Source: Prevotella sp. (GTDB lineage: Bacteria > Bacteroidota > Bacteroidia > Bacteroidales > Bacteroidaceae). Taken from it: a DNA stretch of 64,000 bases. Under the pieces are notes generated by a model. The model was not told the DNA's origin. It saw nothing but the letters and a program-made list of their open reading frames with translations, and searched no databases. The first letter of the stretch is position 1. Every line of letters starts with the position of its first letter. Shown in pieces: positions 5,659 through 42,935 of this stretch. Position numbers and translations under genes: made by a program. The stretch spans positions 157,660-221,659 of the forward strand of contig JAFUEP010000024.1 of assembly GCA_017470345.1 (NCBI GenBank), read 5' to 3'.

Positions 5659-5692
5659 TTAGATAATAGATAAAAGATAATAGATAATAGAT
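5659..5692 (+). repeat. Short tandem repeat, AGATAAT type
   Basis: The whole spacer between susC and susD is a tandem array of AGATAAT/AGATAAA-like heptamers. The same unit type fills the gap after susD (7416-7470) and, on the other strand, the aroQ 3' end (40943-40980). Confidence 0.85.
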
Positions 5693-7435
5693 ATGATTAC
5701 AAGATATATCCGAAAAATAGCAGCTGCTGTCTTCGTTTGTTGCGCCAGCTGCGCAACCTTCACCAGCTGCAACGACTTCCTCGACGAGACGCCCGACGGA
5801 CGCATCAGCGTCGACAACACGGGCAAGATCCGCGCACTGCTCACCACGGCCTATCCCGACGTCACCTACGTCCGAATGACCGAGCTGGCCAGCGACAACG
5901 CCGACGACCTCAACGGCGACCTCAACGGCAACTACGACCGCTTCTCCGAGCAGTGCTTCCGATGGCAGGAGGTCACCGAGAGCGACAACGAGAGCCCCAC
6001 GATGGTCTGGCAGGGCTACTACGCTGCCATCGCCGCCGCCAACAACGCCCTCGTGGCCATCGACAACCTCGGAGGGGCCGCCGCCAGCGACACGCTCCGC
6101 GCCCTGCGCGCCGAGGCGCTGCTCTGCCGCGCCTTCTCGCACTTCATGCTGACCAACCTGTTCTGCCTTAACTACTCGAAACAACACAGCCAGACCGACC
6201 CCGGCATACCCTACATCACCGAGCCGGAGACGACCCTCAACCCGCAGTATGACCGCGGCACCGTCGCCCACGACTACGAGATGATCGAGCGCGACCTGCT
6301 CGAGGGACTACAGCTCATGAGCGACGCCATCTACACCGTGCCGTCCTATCACTTCAACACGCGGGCGGCCTACACCTTCGCCTCGCGCTTCTACCTCTTC
6401 TACCAGCAGCCCGAGAAGGTCATCCAGTACGCCACGCTCGCACTCGACGACAACCCGCAGTCGCTCATGCGCGACTACGACGTCATGCAGTCGATGCCCA
6501 CCGACGACATGCAGCCCCGCTCGCGGCAGTATGTCTCGTCGACCGAGCCCGCCAACTTCCTCCTGCTGCCCGTCTACAGCACCGACCAGTACTACTTCCA
6601 GGGCTACTCCACCGGCGGACGATTCAACAACAACCACTACATCGGACAGGCCGAGGAGTTCTTCGCCACGCCCTGGATGCCCTCCGTCGAGGCCGCCCAG
6701 CAGTCGCAGAACCTCTATCGCTTCTACTGGTTCTACAGCCAGACCTACGACAAGTTCCTCCTGCCCAAGCAGCCCGCCTACTTCCAGGAGACCAACTCGA
6801 ACACCCACACGGGCTACTACCGCACCGTCGTCGTCGCACTGAAGGCTGAGGAGGCCCTGCTCAACCGCGCCGAGGCCTACGTCCTGACGGGTCAGAACCA
6901 GAAGGCGCTCGACGACATCAACGTATGGACACGCAACTTCGTCGTCGACTCCGTCACCTACGTCAGCGGCGGCCACTACAACTGGGACCCCTTCGAGTAT
7001 GTCGTGGAGTACAGCACCGAGCAGGTGCCTAACCAGCTGACCTTCGAGAGCATCCGCGAGTGGGCCTCCAAGTGGGGCTACTACCAGCCGCAGCAGCCCC
7101 TGCCGCGCAAGCGCCTCAACCCCGAGTTCGTCAGCCTCACCGAGGGCTCCACTCAGGAGGACCTGCTGCAGTGTCTGCTGCTCATCCGCCGACTGGAGTT
7201 CCTGCATGAGGGCATGCGATGGTTCGACATCAAGCGCTACGGCATGAAGATCTACCGCCGAGAGATCAACGCGGCCCTCAACATGCTGACACTGACCGAC
7301 TCTATGTCCTACCGCGACCCGCGTCAGGCCCTCCAGATTCCCTTCGAGGTGCAGGCCGCCGGCATCACGCCCAACGCCCGCCCCGAGGCCGAGCCCGCGG
7401 CCTTCGCCACTTGGAAGATAACAGATAACAGATAA
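5693..7435 (+). CDS. SusD/RagB family surface nutrient-binding lipoprotein
   Basis: A 580-residue lipoprotein that would sit on top of the SusC barrel and capture its ligand. The signal peptide ends in a lipobox FTSC with Cys26 as lipid anchor. NDFLDETPDGRI is the hallmark start of mature SusD proteins. Later SusD motifs are visible, such as ALRAEALLCRAFSHFMLTNL (helical TPR-like part) and RRLEFLHEGMRWFDIKRYG near the C-terminus. It lies 34 bp downstream of susC, in the same operon. The last residues (KITDNR, then stop) are encoded by the tandem repeat that fills the following gap, so the original C-terminus may have been altered. Confidence 0.96.
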   Translation: MITRYIRKIAAAVFVCCASCATFTSCNDFLDETPDGRISVDNTGKIRALLTTAYPDVTYVRMTELASDNADDLNGDLNGNYDRFSEQCFRWQEVTESDNESPTMVWQGYYAAIAAANNALVAIDNLGGAAASDTLRALRAEALLCRAFSHFMLTNLFCLNYSKQHSQTDPGIPYITEPETTLNPQYDRGTVAHDYEMIERDLLEGLQLMSDAIYTVPSYHFNTRAAYTFASRFYLFYQQPEKVIQYATLALDDNPQSLMRDYDVMQSMPTDDMQPRSRQYVSSTEPANFLLLPVYSTDQYYFQGYSTGGRFNNNHYIGQAEEFFATPWMPSVEAAQQSQNLYRFYWFYSQTYDKFLLPKQPAYFQETNSNTHTGYYRTVVVALKAEEALLNRAEAYVLTGQNQKALDDINVWTRNFVVDSVTYVSGGHYNWDPFEYVVEYSTEQVPNQLTFESIREWASKWGYYQPQQPLPRKRLNPEFVSLTEGSTQEDLLQCLLLIRRLEFLHEGMRWFDIKRYGMKIYRREINAALNMLTLTDSMSYRDPRQALQIPFEVQAAGITPNARPEAEPAAFATWKITDNR

Positions 7436-7470
7436 CAGATAAGAGATAATAGATAATAGATAATAGATAT
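7416..7470 (+). repeat. Tandem AGATAACAG/AGATAAT repeat running into the susD 3' end
   Basis: Units of AGATAACAG then AGATAAT/AGATAAG occupy the spacer between susD and the zinc lipoprotein gene and already start inside the susD reading frame, supplying its last codons and stop. Confidence 0.85.
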
Positions 7471-7474
7471 TGAT

Positions 7475-8434
7475 ATGAATACGAAATATTTCCTGAAAGT
7501 CGGGCTGACGGTCCTCCTGGGCGTCAACATCGCTGCGGCCCTCACCAGCTGCTCCGGCGACGACGACGTCGACACCGCCATCAGCGTCATCACCGACAAG
7601 CAGACACCAGAGAACGACCTCGACCGATGGCTCATGAAGAACTACGTCGAGCCATACAACATCGAGATGCGCTACCGTTGGGAGGACAACGAGATGCAGA
7701 TGGACTACATCCTCGTCCCAGCCAAGTATGAGAACGCCATTCGCATGGCCAAGATCCTGAAGTATATCTGCTTCGACGCCTTCGACGAGGTCACTGGCAG
7801 CAAGCAGTTCATCCGCAACTACTTCCCGAAGATCATCCAGCTCGTGGGCAACCCCGGATGGAGCCCCAGCGCCGACGGCTCCTACATCCTCGGACAGGCC
7901 GAGGGAGGCTACAAGATCAGCCTCTACTACGTCAACCACCTCGGCGACCAGTACTACGACGCCAACTGGCAGTCGCACGACGTCATCACCAGCCGCGAGC
8001 AGCTCAATGCCAACTACTTCCACACCATCATCCACGAGTTTGCACACGTCTTCCACCAGAAGGTGCCCTACAGCAACGCCTTCACCCAGATCACCGGCAC
8101 AGACTACGTCGGAGGCATGTACTCCAGCGTCTTCTCATCCAACGACGACCCGCGTGCCTACCTCATGGGATTCGTCACAGCCTATGCCGCATGCAACGCC
8201 GACGAGGACTTCGCCGAGACTTTCTCGACCTACATCTGCTCCACGCCCGAGGAGTTTGAGCTCATCCTCACCACCGCCGGCGCCAGCGGCCGGCAGCTCC
8301 TGGAGCGCAAGATCTCGATGGTGCGCAACTACTTCCGCTCTAACTGGGGCCTCGACCTCGACCGTGTGCGCGACGCCGTCCAGAAGCGCGAGGCCAACCT
8401 CGAGGGCCAGGACTTCGACGACATCAGCATCTGA
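7475..8434 (+). CDS. Substrate import-associated zinc metallohydrolase lipoprotein (HExxH)
   Basis: A 319-residue lipoprotein with a lipobox LTSC (Cys26). It has a zinc-protease motif HEFAHVFHQ at residues 187-195, with a further acidic region ADEDFAETFS about 55 residues later that could provide the third ligand. Length, motif and position directly after SusD match the Bacteroidetes family of import-associated zinc lipoproteins (putative zinc-binding metallopeptidase type), which accompany SusC/SusD pairs and DUF4302 proteins. Its biochemical activity is not established for the family as far as I know; proteolysis is an inference from the motif. The N-terminal region NIAAALTSC is nearly the same as that of the next gene (NIAAALTGC), suggesting shared signal-peptide ancestry. 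Confidence 0.88.
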   Translation: MNTKYFLKVGLTVLLGVNIAAALTSCSGDDDVDTAISVITDKQTPENDLDRWLMKNYVEPYNIEMRYRWEDNEMQMDYILVPAKYENAIRMAKILKYICFDAFDEVTGSKQFIRNYFPKIIQLVGNPGWSPSADGSYILGQAEGGYKISLYYVNHLGDQYYDANWQSHDVITSREQLNANYFHTIIHEFAHVFHQKVPYSNAFTQITGTDYVGGMYSSVFSSNDDPRAYLMGFVTAYAACNADEDFAETFSTYICSTPEEFELILTTAGASGRQLLERKISMVRNYFRSNWGLDLDRVRDAVQKREANLEGQDFDDISI

Positions 8435-8435
8435 G

Positions 8436-8513
8436 TGCATAGTTCATAGTGTATAGTTCATAGTGCATAGTGCATAGTGCATAGTTCATAGTTAACAGTT
8501 TACAGTTTACAGT
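8436..8513 (+). repeat. Tandem CATAGT-type repeat in the operon spacer
   Basis: The 80-bp gap between the zinc lipoprotein and DUF4302 genes consists of CATAGTGCATAGTTCATAGT-like units turning into ACAGTTT units just before the next ATG. No gene lies in it. Confidence 0.8.
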
Positions 8514-9867: not shown

Positions 9868-9985
9868 GTGAAGTAAAAGATGAAAGATGAAAAGTGAAAG
9901 ATGAAAGATATGATTAGCTTTAGCACCGATTATTAAGCGGAAAGTCTAATCATATCTTTCATCTTTCACTTTTCATCTTTCACAT
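9868..9985. repeat. Foldback repeat between convergent genes (37-bp perfect arms)
   Basis: Bases 881-917 of the 9-kb block (9881-9917), built of GATGAAA/GTGAAA heptamers plus GATATGATTAG, are the exact reverse complement of 9946-9982. The loop is 28 bases. It could serve as a bidirectional terminator for the two converging genes. Confidence 0.9.
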
Positions 9986-15342: not shown

Positions 15343-15536
15343 TGTAAAGGAAATTCAGAATTTTTGTCCGGTTTTTACAACTGCCTGGTTTTTAGGCGTT
15401 TATTTGCAGGCAGAAAAAGAAGCGGTGCTTTTCGATGAGAGAAGCGGTGCTTTTTTGATCGAAAAGCGGCGCTTCTCTGGCCGAGAAGCGCCGCTTTTTC
15501 AAAATCCGTCCTGACGATGTAAAGAATATTCTGAAT
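15343..15536 (-). repeat. Copy 2 (inverted) of the ~195-bp AAGCGGNNCTT structured element
   Basis: On the minus strand this copy starts with GATTCAGAATATTCTTTAC, the same 19 bases as copy 1, and ends with ATTCTGAATTTCCTTTACA. Its core (15417-15499) contains four AAGCGGNNCTT words, read +,+,+,- on the plus strand. It lies in the gap between the 1093-aa gene and the thiamine locus. Confidence 0.8.
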
Positions 15537-15616: not shown

Positions 15617-15720
15617 TCTTACAAAAACAAAATAAAACAAAATAAAACATGAAAAAAACAATTAGCCTGATATATCCTGTTTTATTTTGTTTTTTCTTGT
15701 TTTATTTTGTTTTTGTAAGA
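15617..15720. repeat. Foldback repeat with 24-bp perfect arms downstream of pnuT
   Basis: TCTTACAAAAACAAAATAAA... at 15617-15640 is the exact reverse complement of 15697-15720. The loop contains a second inverted copy of the TTTTATTTTGTTTT motif. It ends 24 bp before the pnuT stop and could act as its terminator. Confidence 0.85.
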
Positions 15721-16316: not shown

Positions 16317-16340
16317 ATTTTGAAGGTTGATGGTAGATGG

Positions 16341-16525
16341 TAGAAGGTAGAAGGGTCGGCTTCGCCGAGGACGAAGGTTGAAGGTTGAAGGAGGAGGGTT
16401 GCTGAGGTTTAGGATTTTGGTTGAAGGTGAAGGTGGTTTCCACAATCCTTATACTGCCTCGTTGGCAAAACCATTCCTTCAACCTTCGTCCTTCGTCCTC
16501 GGCGAAGCCGACCCTTCTACCTTCT
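16341..16525. repeat. Foldback repeat between pnuT and the thiamine receptor
   Basis: Left arm 16341-16390 (TAGAAGG units, then GTCGGCTTCGCCGAGGAC, then GAAGGTT units) is matched in reverse complement by 16476-16525 with one 8-base extra unit. The flanks of each arm are short tandem repeats (GGTAGAA, CTTCTTC). It separates two genes of one operon. Confidence 0.85.
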
Positions 16526-16548
16526 TCCTTCTTCCTTCTTCCTTCGTG

Positions 16549-23989: not shown

Positions 23990-24720
23990 AACCACGAGTT
24001 TATTTAACCACGAATTACACTAATTTCACGAATTAATTCTTAACCACGAATTACACTAATTCCACGAATTTTTTTTAAAACAACGAATTAAGACGAATTA
24101 CACGAATTGTCACGAATTAAAACTAATTTCACGAATTCTTTTTAAAAACAACGAATTAAGACGAATTGCACGAATTAAAACGAATTTTATTATATTTCAC
24201 GAATTATTTCTATTTCACGAATTATTTCTATTTCACGAATTTTTTTTTATTTCACGAATTATTTTTTCATTTCACGAATTGGCTGCGCACTGGCAATCGC
24301 TACATGTAGCAGACAATTCGTGACAATTCGTGACAATTCGTACAATTCGTGTAATTAGAATTAATTCGTGTCATTAATATTAATTCGTGTAATTAGTTTT
24401 AATTCGTGTAATTAGTTCAAATTCGTGTAATTAGTTCAAATTCGCGTAATTAGTTTTAATTCGTGTAATTAGTTTTAATTCGTGTAATTAGCTCAAATTT
24501 GTGTAATTAGTTCAAATTCGTGTCAATTCGTGTAATTCGTCTTAATTCGTTGTTTTTAAAAAGAATTCGTGAAATTAGTTTTAATTCGTGACAATTCGTG
24601 TAATTCGTCTTAATTCGTTGTTTTAAAAAAAATTCGTGGAATTAGTGTAATTCGTGGTTAAGAAATAATTCATGTTTAAGAAATAATTCGCAGTTAAGAA
24701 ACAATTCGTGGTGAAGATAA
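23990..24720. repeat. Giant AT-rich foldback made of CACGAATT/AATTCGTG units
   Basis: About 730 bp with no gene. The left half repeats CACGAATT plus short spacers, the right half repeats AATTCGTG. Bases 24039-24176 (138 nt) are the reverse complement of 24525-24662, with one mismatch that I can find. Between the arms are shorter irregular units (about 20 bp, such as TTCGTGTAATTAGTTCAAA) and a small unique centre around 24284-24312. The block separates the convergent CoA-transferase and hemolysin III genes. Confidence 0.95.
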
Positions 24721-33899: not shown

Positions 33900-34093
33900 T
33901 TCGGAATTATTTTTACATCATCGACAACTTCATCGACAAAGCGGTGCTTTTCTGTCCGAAAAGCACCGCTTCTCGATCAAAAAAGCGGCACTTCTCTCAT
34001 CGAAAAGCACCGCTTCTTTTTTAGCGATATGATATGTGATTGAATATCAGCGACTTGCAAAAACCGAGCAGTCGATTCGGAATTTTATTTACA
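33899..34093 (+). repeat. Copy 3 of the ~195-bp AAGCGGNNCTT structured element
   Basis: It starts within the stop codon of the M6 protease (ATTCGGAATTATTTTTACA) and ends ATTCGGAATTTTATTTACA, 12 bp before the RNase R stop. The core at 33939-34020 has four words in +,-,+,- order forming two hairpins. It fills the convergent gap almost completely. Confidence 0.82.
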
Positions 34094-34104
34094 AAACGAC
34101 CACG

Positions 34105-36408
34105 TCAGTCGGCCAACTCGAAGTCGAGCTGGCGGCGCTCCAGGTCGGCGCGGGCCACGCGGATGCGGATGGGGTCGCCGAGGAGATACTTGCGGTGGGT
34201 GCGGCGGCCGACGAGGCAGTAGCGGCGCTCGTCGAACTCGTAGTAGTCGCCGTCGAGGTCGTGCATGCCGATGAGCCCCTCGCAGTGGTTCTCGTCGATC
34301 TCGCAGTAGAGGCCGTAGGACTGTATGCCGGAGATGTGGGCGTCGAACTCCTGGCCGATCTTGTCGCCCATGAACTCCACCATCTTATACTTGATCGAGT
34401 CGCGCTCGGCCTGCTGGGCCGTCTGCTCCATGAGGCTGGAGTGCTCGCACTGCTCCTCGTAGTACTTCTGGTTGGCCGAGCGGCCGCCCTCCTGATAGCG
34501 GGTGAGCAGGCGGTGGACCATCGTGTCGGGATAGCGGCGGATGGGCGAGGTGAAGTGGGTGTAGTAGTCGAAGGCCAGTCCGTAGTGGCCGATGTTGTGG
34601 GTGGAGTACTTGGCCTTCATCATGGCCCTGAGGGCGAGCGTCTCGACGAGCTTCTGCTCGCGGTGGCCGTCGGCGTCGGCGATCAGTTTGTTGAGGCTCT
34701 TGGAGATGGCGCCGCGCGAGCCCTCCACCTTCAGCTTGTAGCCGAAGGGTGCCACGACGGTGCGCAGCTGCTCGAGCTTCTGCGGGTCGGGCTGGTCGTG
34801 GATGCGGTAGGGCAGCGTCTTGGCCTTCGTCCCTTTCGGCACGCGCCCTATCATCTCGGCCACGGTGCGGTTGGCCAGCAGCATGAACTCCTCGATGAGC
34901 TGGGTGGCGAGGGTCGACTTCTTATAGTAGCAGCGCGTCGGGTGGCCCTTCTCGTCGATGTCGAAGTGGAGCTCCTCGCGGTCGAACTTGACGGCGCCGC
35001 TCTTGAAGCGCCGCTCGCGCAGGGCCTGGGCCATGCGGCTCAAGACTCTAAGTGAAGAGTGAAGAGTGAAGAGTGAAGAATTTGCTGCCGCCACACTATC
35101 GTCAGATGGGACGGCGGCAGCAAATTTTTCACTTTTCACTTTTCCTTTTTCACTCAGGATCTCGTCGACCTCCTCGTAGGCGAAGCGGCGGTCGCTGCGG
35201 ATGACGGTGTGGACGAGGCGCGACGACTTGATATTGGCGTCTTCGTCTAAAACGAAGACCACACTGTAGCAGAGCTTCTCCTCGTCGGGGCGCAGCGAGC
35301 AGATGAAGTTGCAGAGGCGCTCGGGCAGCATCGGGATGGTGCGGTCGACGAGGTAGACGCTCGTGGCCCGCTGCTGCGCCTCCTTGTCGATGACGGAACC
35401 CTCGGTGACGTAGTGGGAGACGTCGGCAATGTGGACGCCTACCTCGTAGAGAGCCCCCCTCCCCGCCCCCCCGAGGGGGGGAGCAGATAGTTTTGTAGAC
35501 GGCAAAGCTATATACTCCTCCCCCTCGGGGGAGGCCGGGAGGGGGGCTTTGAGGGGTGCTATGCTGAGCGCATCGTCGAAGTCCTTGGCGTCCTTGGGGT
35601 CGATGGTGAAGGTGAGCACGTCGCGGAAGTCCTCGCGGCCCTCGAGGTCGGCGGGGGTGATGTCGGCATTGATCTTGTTGGCGGCCTCCTCCACCTTCTT
35701 CGGATACTTATAGGGCAGGCCGTACTTGGCCAGGATGGCGTGCATCTCGACGTTGTTGTCGCCCTGCTCGCCCAGCACGTCGATGACCTCGCCGACGAGG
35801 TTCTTCGACTCGGCCGACGGCCACTGCGTGATGCGCACGACGGCCTTCTGGCCGGTCTTGCCGCCCTTCAGCTTCTTCTTCGGGATGAGGATGTCCTGAG
35901 CCAGCTGCGAGCCGTCGGCGTTGAGGAAGGCATAGTCCTTCTCGACCTGCAGGATGCCGACGGCCTGCTCGTGCTTGCGCTCGATAATCTCGGTGACGAC
36001 GGCCTCGCGCATGTGGTTGGGCCGGCGCGCCATCATGGCCACGCGGACGCGGTCGCCGCCCATGGCCATCATCGAGTTGCGCTCGGAGACGAAGATGGGC
36101 TCGCCACCGCCGTCGGGGATGAATGAGTTCTTGCCGTTGGCCTTGCGGACGAAGGTGCCCTCCTGCACCTGCGTCTTCAGGTTCAGGCGGTAGGCGCCGT
36201 CCTGCGTCTTCACCACATAGTCGTCCCACGTCATCTCGTCGAGGGCGTCGATGGCGAGCATCTTCAGCGGATGCGTGTTGAGTCGGAGAGCCTTGAATAT
36301 CTGGCGCAGCGTCATTGCTTCGCCGGGGTTAGCCTGAAACAGGCCTTGCAGTGCGTTGGCCACGTCGCGCTTCGACGAGCGCCGTTTCATCGTCTTGTCT
36401 TTGCTCAT
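34105..36408 (-). CDS. rnr: Ribonuclease R (3'-5' exoribonuclease) with two repeat-derived insertions
   Basis: A 767-residue RNase II/R family enzyme that degrades structured RNA. The ATG at 36408 is used; the upstream extension is unlikely. The N-terminal winged-helix-like part (LRQIFKALRLNTHPLKML) is followed by OB domains, the RNB catalytic domain with KDAKDFDDALS (acidic Mg-binding residues), EVGVHIADVSHYV, LPERLCNFICSLRPDEEKLC and LLANRTVAEMIG, and an S1 domain near the end. Two stretches do not belong to the family: residues about 285-319, directly after DDALS, and about 419-453, after DEIL. Both are encoded by palindromic repeats (35450-35555, 35051-35154), keep the frame and lie where other RNase R proteins have short loops. 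Activity is probably kept. Confidence 0.95.
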   Translation of the reverse strand: MSKDKTMKRRSSKRDVANALQGLFQANPGEAMTLRQIFKALRLNTHPLKMLAIDALDEMTWDDYVVKTQDGAYRLNLKTQVQEGTFVRKANGKNSFIPDGGGEPIFVSERNSMMAMGGDRVRVAMMARRPNHMREAVVTEIIERKHEQAVGILQVEKDYAFLNADGSQLAQDILIPKKKLKGGKTGQKAVVRITQWPSAESKNLVGEVIDVLGEQGDNNVEMHAILAKYGLPYKYPKKVEEAANKINADITPADLEGREDFRDVLTFTIDPKDAKDFDDALSIAPLKAPLPASPEGEEYIALPSTKLSAPPLGGAGRGALYEVGVHIADVSHYVTEGSVIDKEAQQRATSVYLVDRTIPMLPERLCNFICSLRPDEEKLCYSVVFVLDEDANIKSSRLVHTVIRSDRRFAYEEVDEILSEKGKVKSEKFAAAVPSDDSVAAANSSLFTLHSSLRVLSRMAQALRERRFKSGAVKFDREELHFDIDEKGHPTRCYYKKSTLATQLIEEFMLLANRTVAEMIGRVPKGTKAKTLPYRIHDQPDPQKLEQLRTVVAPFGYKLKVEGSRGAISKSLNKLIADADGHREQKLVETLALRAMMKAKYSTHNIGHYGLAFDYYTHFTSPIRRYPDTMVHRLLTRYQEGGRSANQKYYEEQCEHSSLMEQTAQQAERDSIKYKMVEFMGDKIGQEFDAHISGIQSYGLYCEIDENHCEGLIGMHDLDGDYYEFDERRYCLVGRRTHRKYLLGDPIRIRVARADLERRQLDFELAD
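35051..35154. repeat. In-frame palindromic element inside rnr, TTTGCTGCCGCC core
   Basis: Ends are tandem GTGAAGA-like units on the left and their complement (TTTTCAC) on the right. The core TTTGCTGCCGCC (35081-35092) is mirrored by GGCGGCAGCAAA (35113-35124). It is translated as SEKGKVKSEK, FAAAVPSDDSVAAANS and SLFTLHSSL. The same core occurs in the epimerase gene at 37033-37137. Confidence 0.9.
35450..35555. repeat. In-frame GC-rich palindromic element inside rnr
   Basis: AGCCCCCCTCCCCGCCCCCC ... on the left is mirrored by CCGGGAGGGGGGCTTT on the right, with a loop around TAGACGGCAAAGCTAT. It encodes about 35 residues (APLKAPLPASPEGEEYIALP and SAPPLGGAGRGAL) between DDALSI and YEVGVHIADV. 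Confidence 0.88.
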
Positions 36409-36438
36409 AGTTATGTCGGATTTTAGTTGTATATGTGG

Positions 36439-36446
36439 CAAAGATA
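36439..36446 (-). promoter_or_regulatory. Bacteroidetes -7 box for rnr
   Basis: TATCTTTG on the minus strand, 31 bp upstream of the rnr ATG. Confidence 0.6.
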
Positions 36447-36520
36447 GTATTTTTTTCCGAACCGGCCAACTTATTTCTGCTTTTTATTGACAGCAGTGCG
36501 ACGGTTTAGCTTTTTTTTTG

Positions 36521-36528
36521 TATCTTTG
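36521..36528 (+). promoter_or_regulatory. Bacteroidetes -7 box for the epimerase gene
   Basis: TATCTTTG on the plus strand, 21 bp upstream of the ATG at 36549, divergent to the rnr promoter. Confidence 0.65.
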
Positions 36529-36548
36529 CAGCAAAGTTTTATCTGATT

Positions 36549-37649
36549 ATGCCAAAGATACTGATTACGGGAGCCAGCGGATTCATTGGCTCGTTTATCG
36601 TGGAGGAGGCCCTCCGGCGGGGCTGGGAGACGTGGGCTGCCTTGCGCCGCTCGAGCTCCAGGCAGTTCCTGCAGGACGAGCGCATCCACTTCATTGAGCT
36701 CAACCTGAGCAACGAGCAGCAGCTCACCGAGCAGCTGCGCGGCCATGAGTTCGACTACGTCGTGCATGCGGCCGGCGTGACGAAATGTATCGACCAGGCC
36801 GACTTCCGCCGCATCAACACCGAGGGGACGCAGCATCTCGTCCGGGCCCTCATCGCCCTCGGGATGCCGCTGCGCAGGTTTGTCTTCGTCAGCTCGCTGA
36901 GCGTCTTCGGCGCCATCCGCGAGCAGCAGCCCTACGAGGAGATCCGCGAGACCGACACGCCGCAGCCCAACACCGCCTACGGCCGCTCGAAGCTCGAGGC
37001 GGAGCAGTGGCTGGAGAGCGTCAATGACAGTGTAGAACGGAGAACGGAGAATGTAGAGTTTGCTACCGCCACTCCTTCTGCCGTTGATGGGACGGCGGCA
37101 GCAAACTCTCAGTTCTCCGTTCTCAGTTCTCCGTTCCCATATGTCATCCTCCGCCCGACGGGTGTCTATGGTCCCCGCGAGCGCGACTACTTCCTCATGG
37201 CCAAGTCGATCAAGCAGCACTCCGACTTCGCCGTGGGCTACAAGCGGCAGGACATCACCTTCGTCTATGTCGACGACGTCGTACAGGCCGTCTTCCTGGC
37301 CTGCGAGAAGGGTCAGACGGGCCGCAAGTATTTCCTCTCTGACGGACAGGTCTATCAGTCGACGACGTTCAGCGACCTCATCCGCGAGGAGCTGGGCCAC
37401 CCCTGGTTGATCCGCATCACGGCCCCCATCTGGGTGCTGCGCGTGGTGACCTTCTTCGGCGACCTCATCGGACGCATGACGGGCAAGATCTCGGCCCTGA
37501 ACAACGACAAGTATCACATCCTGCGCCAGCGCAACTGGCGCTGCGACATCGAGCCGGCCCGCCGCGAGCTGGGCTACGAGCCGCGGGTGCAGCTCGAGGA
37601 GGGCGTCCGCCGCACGATCCGCTGGTATAAGGAGAACGGATGGCTGTGA
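36549..37649 (+). CDS. NAD-dependent epimerase/dehydratase (extended SDR) with repeat-derived insertion
   Basis: A 366-residue short-chain dehydrogenase/reductase acting on a nucleotide sugar or lipid-linked substrate (unknown). The Rossmann motif GASGFIGSFI is at residues 8-17, followed by VVHAAGVTK, VSSLSVFGA and the catalytic YGRSK (Tyr and Lys), and then VILRPTGVYGPRERDY and FVYVDDVVQA of extended SDRs. Residues about 162-196 (ERRTENVEFATATPSAVDGT and AAANSQFSVLSSP) are encoded by a palindromic element and interrupt the usual helix-to-strand step between EAEQWLES and FPYVILRPTG. The downstream PAP2 gene may be co-transcribed. Lipid or glycan modification is suggested by that neighbour, but this is weak. 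Confidence 0.92.
   Translation: MPKILITGASGFIGSFIVEEALRRGWETWAALRRSSSRQFLQDERIHFIELNLSNEQQLTEQLRGHEFDYVVHAAGVTKCIDQADFRRINTEGTQHLVRALIALGMPLRRFVFVSSLSVFGAIREQQPYEEIRETDTPQPNTAYGRSKLEAEQWLESVNDSVERRTENVEFATATPSAVDGTAAANSQFSVLSSPFPYVILRPTGVYGPRERDYFLMAKSIKQHSDFAVGYKRQDITFVYVDDVVQAVFLACEKGQTGRKYFLSDGQVYQSTTFSDLIREELGHPWLIRITAPIWVLRVVTFFGDLIGRMTGKISALNNDKYHILRQRNWRCDIEPARRELGYEPRVQLEEGVRRTIRWYKENGWL
37033..37137. repeat. In-frame palindromic element inside the epimerase gene, TTTGCTGCCGCC core
   Basis: Ends are GGAGAAC tandem units (left) and GTTCTCCGTTCTCA units (right). The core TTTGCTACCGCCAC is mirrored by GGCGGCAGCAAA. Core, middle ATGGGACGGCGGCAGCAAA and size match the rnr element at 35051-35154, while the terminal tandem units differ. 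Confidence 0.9.
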
Positions 37650-37735
37650 GGAGAGTTGAGAACTGAGAGTTGAGAACTGAGAATTGAGAACTGAGAGTTG
37701 AGAACTGAGAATTTGGAATTGAGAATAGGGAATTA
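37650..37735 (+). repeat. GAGAACT/GAGAATT tandem repeat between epimerase and PAP2 genes
   Basis: About a dozen units of GAGAACT, GAGAGTT and GAGAATT fill the spacer and run into the apparent start of the PAP2 reading frame. Confidence 0.88.
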
Positions 37736-42429: not shown

Positions 42430-42935
42430 GGACAACAAGACTTCAGACTACAGACTACAGACTTTAGACTATAGACTACAGACTATAGGCTATAGACTAT
42501 AGGCTATAGGACATCAAGACATCAAGACATCAAGACAACAAGACATCAAGATTCTTTTGATGTCTATGCATATATGAAGGGGATGGGATAATATTGGAGA
42601 AGGGAGGAAAAAGATGTAAAACGTAAAGATTTTTCGCAATCAATATCAACTATTTCAAAAACTCTTGATAATCAATTGATTAGAAGTTACAAGAAAAAGA
42701 AGCGGTGCTTTACGATGAAAGAAGCGGTCCTTTTCGCATCAAAAAGGACCGCTTCTTGATGTGAAAAGCACCGCTTTTCCCCCAACAACCCAGCATTTGT
42801 AAAAAAATATCACAAAAATTACATCAGTAGATTGTCTTGATGTCTTTGTTGTCTTGTTGTCTTGATGTCTTTGTTTTCTTGTTGTCTTGATGTCAATAGT
42901 CTGTAGTCTATAGTCTGTAGTCTATAGTCTTGATG
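42424..42935. repeat. Tandem-repeat foldback between xerD and dus
   Basis: The left side (42424-42555) consists of AGACTACAG/AGACTATAG units and then ACATCAAG units. The right side (42836-42935) consists of their reverse complements, GTCTTGATGT and TAGTCTGTAGTCTA. The arrays touch the stop codons of both convergent genes. Between them lies copy 4 of the ~195-bp element. No gene lies in the gap. Confidence 0.9.
42615..42815 (-). repeat. Copy 4 (inverted) of the ~195-bp AAGCGGNNCTT structured element
   Basis: The core (42698-42780) has the four words arranged +,+,-,- so that they nest into one long hairpin; GGTCC pairs with GGACC and GGTGC with GCACC. The ends are less conserved than in copies 1-3 but keep TTTACA-like boxes at similar distances (about 70 bp from the core on one side). 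Confidence 0.7.

Follow-up and report, generated by a model that had tools for sequence, protein, structure and literature searches.

In a 64,000-nucleotide stretch of a Prevotella sp. genome (assembly GCA_017470345.1, contig JAFUEP010000024.1, positions 157,660 to 221,659; hereafter the window), we studied two palindromic elements that lie in frame inside two unrelated genes, rnr and a short-chain dehydrogenase/reductase (SDR) epimerase gene. In our judgment they are very probably copies of a non-autonomous, mobile, hairpin-forming repeat that is frame-neutral in genes and acts much as the Rickettsia palindromic elements (RPE) do. The repeat forms a many-copy family with a defined anatomy and sharp ends, it is distributed beyond this genome, homologues of the two host genes lack the inserted residues, and its copies in genes follow one rule of frame and length. 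The source assembly is a 2.67-Mb genome in 68 contigs, estimated to be 61.6% complete.

Two elements in rnr and an epimerase gene

The two elements and their host genes are as follows (C, G and L numbers are our handles for contigs, genomes and loci):

34105..36441, minus strand: rnr (RNase R), 778 aa; TIGR02063 RNase_R, 714.5 bits (cut-off 597.85).
35051-35154, within rnr: complete element, 104 nt; genome model match C15:192705-192818.
35051-35080: left arm of the rnr element, four AGTGAAG heptads.
35081-35124: its core, 44 nt; TTTGCTGCCGCC - 20-nt loop - GGCGGCAGCAAA.
35125-35154: its right arm.
36549..37649, plus strand: NAD-dependent epimerase/dehydratase (SDR), 366 aa; PF01370 Epimerase, E 1.2e-40.
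37029-37135, within the epimerase gene: complete element, 107 nt; genome model match C15:194683-194799.
37029-37058: left arm of the epimerase element; heptads in both arms of GGAGAAC/TGAGAAC type.
37059-37105: its core, 47 nt; TTTGCTACCGCC - 23-nt loop - GGCGGCAGCAAA.
37106-37135: its right arm.

The limits were set by the boundary found over 129 elements, which gives an arm of 30 nt on either side of the core. Arm complementarity is 82% over 50 nt in the rnr element and 86% over 37 nt in the epimerase element, and the two cores have 20 identical nt, GATGGGACGGCGGCAGCAAA. An earlier note, made from the sequence of the window alone, had placed palindromes at both sites and described a common core, inserted peptides and host genes that stay open. 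All of this is borne out, with open frames of 778 and 366 aa and the peptides as quoted there, except that the epimerase element starts at 37029, 4 nt before the 37033 given. The note had also pointed to different terminal tandem units in the two elements; they do differ, but they are heptad types within one family.

A family with a defined anatomy

The 12-mer GGCGGCAGCAAA has 29 exact matches in the genome, compared with 0 for a reversed control. With a covariance model we found at least 31 complete elements (E <= 6.4e-12; the next match has E = 0.004), a lower bound because 150 of 1314 first-look candidates were scored. The presence of further copies in the genome had been set beforehand as a test of the idea, and these counts show that the family is not a product of chance. 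When 15 complete copies were aligned, 86.7% of the hairpin cells were paired, versus 46-49% in slid controls, and 21 pairs had changed on both sides, versus 14.6 in shuffles.

Each element is built from two inverted halves, and each half consists of a half-core TTTGCTRCCGC(C) and four heptads of the types GTGAAAA, GTGAAGA, GTGTAGA or GGAGAAC. The length is about 92 to 117 bp and the loop is roughly 10 to 35 nt. Halves also occur singly: 11 of the 29 exact 12-mer matches are single halves, some of which follow one another in tandem every 46 or 48 nt. The core is of the TTTGCT type or a close variant in 30 of the 31 elements of this genome, and the remaining one (C33:14236) has the core ATATGATTAG...CTAATCATAT, the same as in a tandem array of the window (9876-9983). 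One element is present together with its gene on two contigs, C31 and C47.

Across 129 heptad-armed elements, 47 of them in genes, both pairing and period-7 repetition extend to about 30 nt from the core and then fall to background, so we regard the element as discrete (60 nt plus the core, four heptads per side) and not as an open-ended array. To enter this analysis an element had to have an exact core and 70 nt of sequence to either side of it, and 26 of the 31 in this genome qualified. The eight heptads of one copy tend to change together: at one variable position all eight units carry the same letter in 44% of elements (2.7% when shuffled), at another position all eight agree in 37% (0.4% when shuffled), and the majority letters of the left and right arms match in 89%, versus 53% and 46%.

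Copies inside genes keep one frame and one length class

In the genome and viral collections, the core pattern occurs at 116 places, of which 108 have heptad arms; the other 8 were set aside for weak arms, 3 of them being truncated or half-armed (L184, L192, L242). We counted a copy from other genomes as gene-embedded when the frame was open for at least 50 codons on each side, which gave 29 of the 108. All 29 are read in frame 0 (TTT-aligned), and all 29 have a core length of 2 mod 3, compared with 27 of the 79 copies outside genes (Fisher 4.6e-11), where core lengths fall as 28, 24 and 27 over 0, 1 and 2 mod 3. The genome of the window follows the same rule, with 18/18 gene copies and 3/8 others in this class, so that the length class is kept in 47/47 gene copies overall. 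A further small set, in which one gene (L149) is probably common to the first set, gave frame 0 in 7/7 and the length rule in 7/7 copies in genes versus 13/24 outside.

The right halves are often open at other offsets as well (offset 2 in 34/47 and offset 1 in 22/47 gene copies), so stop codons alone are not forcing the rule. Since arm length does not vary, this is most simply explained if insertions persist only when they preserve the frame, and the frame counts indicate selection that keeps host genes readable. The proposal that the element is selected to survive inside proteins is thus supported by the frame and length counts. A related proposal, that the palindrome codes in both directions, stands for 7 of the 29 copies in other genomes; for the other 22, frame 0 is open on one strand. 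We found no sign that gene copies form weaker hairpins than the others (arm complementarity 0.796 versus 0.778, p 0.50; folding energy p 0.18).

Host genes and their homologues

In the genome of the window, an open frame spans 20 of the 31 elements (at least 60 codons on each side). Pfam matches were present in all 19 host frames scanned, and the twentieth is the gene repeated on the second contig (C31/C47). The hosts include RNase R, SDR epimerase, CTP synthase, Mfd, ArgC, a PatB-type lyase, an ABC exporter, a hybrid two-component regulator, a MenC-like enzyme, a glycyl-radical activase, an M24 peptidase, GH88 and GH106 enzymes, and a ClpA-like ATPase whose score is just below the ClpA cut-off. 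In other genomes, where 10 of 30 host frames and 3 more were scanned, we noted the element in ligA, argS and uvrA, at the murF-alr domain boundary, and in the linker of a FeoA-FeoB fusion.

Domain matches to HisKA, ABC_tran, Semialdhyde_dh, RNB, GATase and GH88 have an element within the aligned region and are lengthened relative to the profile (residues/profile positions 93/63 for HisKA, 177/137 for ABC_tran, 156/121 for Semialdhyde_dh and 367/325 for GH88). In CTP synthase, the alignment to PDB 9kao runs to residue 460 and resumes at 463. The predicted inserted peptide has about 35 residues with the pattern S-x-E-x-x-V-x-S-x-E-F-A-[AT]-A-...-A-[AV]-A-N-S-x-L-x-T-L-x-S-x-L, and it probably sits in a surface loop.

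Homologues without the inserted residues were expected if these are insertions, and the insert is absent from 29/29 rnr homologues and from 23/24 epimerase homologues (5 of the 29 other epimerase loci, scoring 150 bits or less, were left out). The remaining epimerase, in the closest relative G022 (L073), has a half-element of another heptad type at the same site and in frame, and the diverged homologues returned by a DNA search were of use in describing it. The suggestion that the insertions fall where family members have a short loop is right for rnr as far as a loop is concerned, but that loop varies naturally in length among relatives (it is 17 residues shorter in PDB 8cdu), and the element partly replaces its residues. 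The rnr gene also contains a second, unrelated G/C-rich palindrome in frame (35452-35548), without counterpart in the 29 aligned homologues and with one more near-full copy at C16:168650.

Copies outside genes

Where a copy is not in a gene, it tends to lie at the 3' end of one, most often in the spacer of a convergent pair. Of 82 such copies, 7 at an edge and 3 within a predicted frame were excluded; of the remaining 72, 42 were between convergent and 5 between divergent genes, whereas 117 and 92 of 580 neighbouring gene pairs in the same loci, called with a naive gene caller, had these arrangements (Fisher 9e-6). Of the flanking 3' ends, 83/109 either fell in an arm (45) or lay just outside the element, no more than 20 nt from its edge (38). 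According to the accessible part of one source, repetitive extragenic palindromic (REP) sequences likewise prefer co-directional and convergent spacers (PMC3733652).

A TTTTT tract directly follows the stem on 91/164 strands outside genes, versus 3/47 coding strands in genes, which weakly suggests that intergenic copies are bidirectional terminators; within gene copies there was no asymmetry between sense and antisense T tracts (1 versus 1). The arms differ in dialect as well: in the genome of the window, A-type (GTGAAAA-like) arms are found in 2/18 gene copies versus 7/8 others (p 4e-4).

Distribution and spread

With stricter filters, the model matches 82 of 150 genomes of the same genus at E <= 1e-5. 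We viewed 24 of these loci: 20 have this core or a close variant, 2 have another core (L164, L169), and in 2 (L159, L163) the core was not resolved by the script. A relaxed 12-mer pair was present in 5 of 60 relatives, the genome of the window included, and one of the others (G032) is family-like. Draws from the phylum and the order gave matches in 12/296 and 13/247 genomes (this genome included), weak outside it, and most of the 19 phylum-draw loci viewed are heptad-armed palindromes with other cores.

In the genome collection, the core pattern occurs in at least 113 stretches. Eighty were named, and 74 of them belong to Prevotella, Prevotellaceae, Bacteroidaceae or Bacteroidales, many labelled by ruminant gut sites; 3 are from Fibrella and have heptad arms. 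The stretches from Oscillospiraceae, Chloroflexi and Sphingobium (3/80) have no clear arms and look like chance matches. The family is also present in Prevotella communis strain E15-14, whose genome is complete, and the one copy viewed there is in frame within a 381-aa frame. Counting two strands per place, there are at least 150 model matches in Fibrella aquatilis, 94 in F. rubiginis and 29 in P. communis.

Three of the six F. rubiginis loci viewed have other cores; L301, L303 and L306 of this species, and L164 and L169 of the same genus, are heptad-armed palindromes with entirely different cores. To judge from these sequences, arms and cores may be separable modules. Where core pairs are at least 93% identical (n=23), 12 have no flanking 11-mer in common, which supports the spread of the element to unrelated places and fits the mobility proposed for it earlier. 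In one of these 12 pairs, a GH106 gene of this genome and an FGGY kinase gene from a different species contain an identical 44-nt core, but the arms are of GTGAAGA type in one species and of GTGTAGA type in the other. We also noted one element between genes on a phage-like viral contig with a Peptidase_S74 protein (L288), a possible route of transfer.

How the element might move and what else could explain it

We picture a trans-acting activity that would copy the repeat to new sites, probably via a single-stranded hairpin, so that it would land both in genes and between them. In genes, the copies that persist would be those that keep the host frame (core 2 mod 3, constant arms) and are stop-free on the coding strand, and the host protein would be translated with an extra peptide of about 35 residues. 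Outside genes, the copies that persist would mainly be those near stop codons at 3' ends, especially where two genes converge, and there they may serve as bidirectional terminator-like hairpins. Homogenisation would affect both arms of a copy at once, in the simplest case because the element folds back and one arm is the template for the other. More tentatively, and as a possibility that we think less likely than not, one palindrome would lead two lives in each genome, as a bidirectional terminator-like spacer outside genes and a frame-neutral coding module inside them, with different arm dialects; cores would travel while heptads are rewritten together, as if by templated heptad addition and fold-back copying. 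If this were true, the heptad-armed palindromes with other cores in Bacteroidota would be one class with a common arm-writing machinery.

The most serious alternative is that the element is of the REPIN type, two inverted REP-like halves moved as single-stranded DNA by a REP-associated tyrosine transposase (RAYT, of the Y1/HuH kind). It shares with REPINs the occurrence of its unit both as inverted pairs and singly, the lack of a target duplication, and the placement at 3' ends and between convergent genes reported for REPs (accessible part of PMC3733652). In a PF01797 family search of the 150 genomes, 51 had both a Y1 gene and a model match, 31 the element only, 25 Y1 only and 43 neither, an association with an odds ratio of 2.8 (p 0.003). 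This association may reflect genome size or completeness, however, and the element was at 0 of 36 Y1 loci (2-7.5 kb fetched each), chosen from more than 100 places listed; some loci, including that of the genome of the window, have other palindromes nearby. The only Y1 match in the genome of the window (E <= 1e-5; L337, G000:C35:30000-34000) lies within an open frame of about 1200 aa that is flanked on either side by palindromes, TAGGAGGCGACGTG.... Nor does the element have the REP/REPIN tag, since composition by position and alignment showed no conserved GTAG or CGTC at the ends; GTAG occurs only within GTGTAGA heptads and not in GTGAAAA arms. We consider this alternative unlikely as it stands, but the flanking structures of Bacteroidetes RAYTs are reported as atypical in the accessible part of PMC6006769, which leaves room for a diverged relationship between RAYT and element. 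An assignment to miniature inverted-repeat transposable elements (MITEs) was rejected, since inverted repeats are present but the 129 elements give no target duplication signal.

Three other explanations seem to us far less probable. The insert could be removed after transcription or translation, or be skipped by the ribosome, in the manner of an intron, an intein or a bypass, leaving the protein unchanged. Strong mRNA hairpins (mean folding energy -58 kcal/mol in gene copies) and the presence of essential-type genes among the hosts would fit, but a removed insert needs neither a frame nor open arms, and one length class in 47/47 and one frame in 29/29 argue against it; Rfam searches in 5 loci, which were also our check for a known RNA family, gave only microRNA-hairpin matches below the gathering scores. 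We give about equally little credit to local, non-mobile heptad slippage in variable loops, with similar low-complexity peptides arising by convergence. The rnr loop does vary in length and coreless plain heptad arrays are common in the window, yet slippage does not account for a core that recurs in inverted pairs, for arms that stop sharply after the fourth heptad, for loops that are nearly the same at unrelated places, or for insertions within conserved domains. An artefact of metagenome assembly or binning hardly comes into question: the assembly is fragmented and incomplete and has one element with its gene on both C31 and C47, but the family is found in the complete genome of P. communis and in 82 of the 150 same-genus genomes.

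Several observations count against the preferred reading of a mobile, frame-neutral repeat, or against parts of it. The genome of the window is only 61.6% complete. Searches for a target-site duplication over 129 elements gave no signal (144 combinations of boundary and length, best z 2.9), the element was not seen at any of the 36 Y1 loci, and no Y1 gene was found in 31 of the 82 model-positive genomes, which are partly incomplete. A base-exact empty site in a very close relative was not found by DNA search, which returned diverged homologues only. The exact inverted 12-mer pair is present in this genome and in none of 59 other relatives, so the cores must diverge quickly. With respect to termination, the contrast in T tracts was not repeated in a second set (4/14 gene versus 12/48 outside, p 0.74), and a terminator scanner for loops of 3-8 flagged nothing at the intergenic A-type copy of L136; its 3 sites on that contig, one of them in another element, are no excess over shuffles. 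The 45/109 flanking genes that end inside an arm do so partly by construction, as the arms hold stop codons and the gene caller is naive.

Other repeats in the window

The window contains further mirror-image pairs of tandem arrays, made of 7-, 8-, 10- and 19-mers with different cores, at 9876-9983, 15624-15713, 16322-16545, 24004-24717 and 42438-42930; the core of the first (ATGATTAG) recurs at C33:14236. Plain heptad arrays are at 5660-5693, 7416-7469, 8434-8507 and 37651-37734, and each of the first three follows an apparent gene end and extends as far as an ATG, somewhat like the TAACTGA repeats of Beggiatoaceae. A separate family of 22-bp tandem repeats with GCGGTGCTTTT-like units is found at 1755-1817, 15418-15499, 33946-34017 and near 42700.

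Significance

In Rickettsia and Wolbachia, reduced genomes and drift can be blamed for selfish DNA inside proteins. Its persistence there at high frequency is best known from these two genera, according to the available portions of two papers (PMC2229807, PMC10969869). A Bacteroidota family with many copies, some of them in essential-type genes such as ligA, argS, murF-alr, pyrG and mfd, would mean that an intracellular lifestyle is no precondition for such persistence. The copies in genes would amount to a natural library of insertions of about 35 residues that conserved enzymes tolerate, and experiments on movement, translation and function could be done in strains of Prevotella communis and of the Fibrella species. 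The concerted change of the heptads points to an undescribed mechanism by which repeats are made or copied. For genome annotation, it is worth knowing that such insertions split or stretch domain matches.

Comparison with known systems

Searches for palindromic elements in genes of Prevotella, Bacteroidales or Bacteroidetes, and for the core letters, found no paper describing the element, in agreement with the earlier note, which knew of no description for Bacteroidales; few subscription papers were covered.

Cyanobacterial short tandemly repeated repetitive sequences (STRRs) are heptamer tandem repeats. TAACTGA heptamer repeats are described from Beggiatoaceae, Cyanobacteria and five Bacteroidetes (PMC4679880, in part), and like the Prevotella element they have a period of seven and lie mostly beside genes. 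In the same portion of that source they are described as simple direct arrays that mostly precede start codons, whereas the Prevotella element has four heptads in mirror order on each side of a conserved core and enters coding sequence.

Inverted pairs of a short unit, hairpin formation, and a location in convergent and co-directional spacers are also known for REPs, REPINs and bacterial interspersed mosaic elements (BIMEs), as the accessible parts of PMC3733652 and PMC6006769 have it. Unlike these, the Prevotella element has no conserved GTAG/CGTC end tag, was at none of 36 RAYT/Y1 loci, has arms of tandem heptads, and is in frame within genes in 20 of 31 copies of its own genome. Enterobacterial repetitive intergenic consensus (ERIC) sequences and Correia-type (107-bp) MITEs are likewise small repeats whose open frames can be fused in frame; PMC2229807, in the portion available, gives them terminal repeats and a target duplication, and no duplication was seen for the Prevotella element. 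The palindromic amphipathic repeat coding elements (PARCEL) of Mollicutes and others are also palindromic coding repeats with a horizontal distribution, but in the accessible part of PMC2996958 they are tandem domains, largely of membrane or surface proteins, while the Prevotella element makes single insertions in housekeeping enzymes.

The closest likeness is to the RPE and the Wolbachia palindromic repeats (Ogata et al. 2000, 2002, 2005, as cited in the portions seen of PMC2229807, PMC10969869 and PMC3733652). RPE are described there as palindromes of about 105-150 bp with many copies, both intergenic and in frame in unrelated conserved genes, and with a conserved inserted peptide; whether they duplicate their target is listed as unresolved. 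The Prevotella element has the same class of traits: palindromes of 104 and 107 nt in the window, many copies, in-frame insertion in one frame, and homologues without the insert. It differs in its hosts, which are Bacteroidota, largely of Prevotella type, and not intracellular alphaproteobacteria, and in its heptad arms that change in concert, its TTTGCTRCCGC core and its strong placement at gene 3' ends. The likeness to the open reading frame-inserted elements of Rickettsia that the earlier note drew thus extends to how the element works, as a functional likeness of class, taken from descriptions of RPE rather than from sequence comparison.

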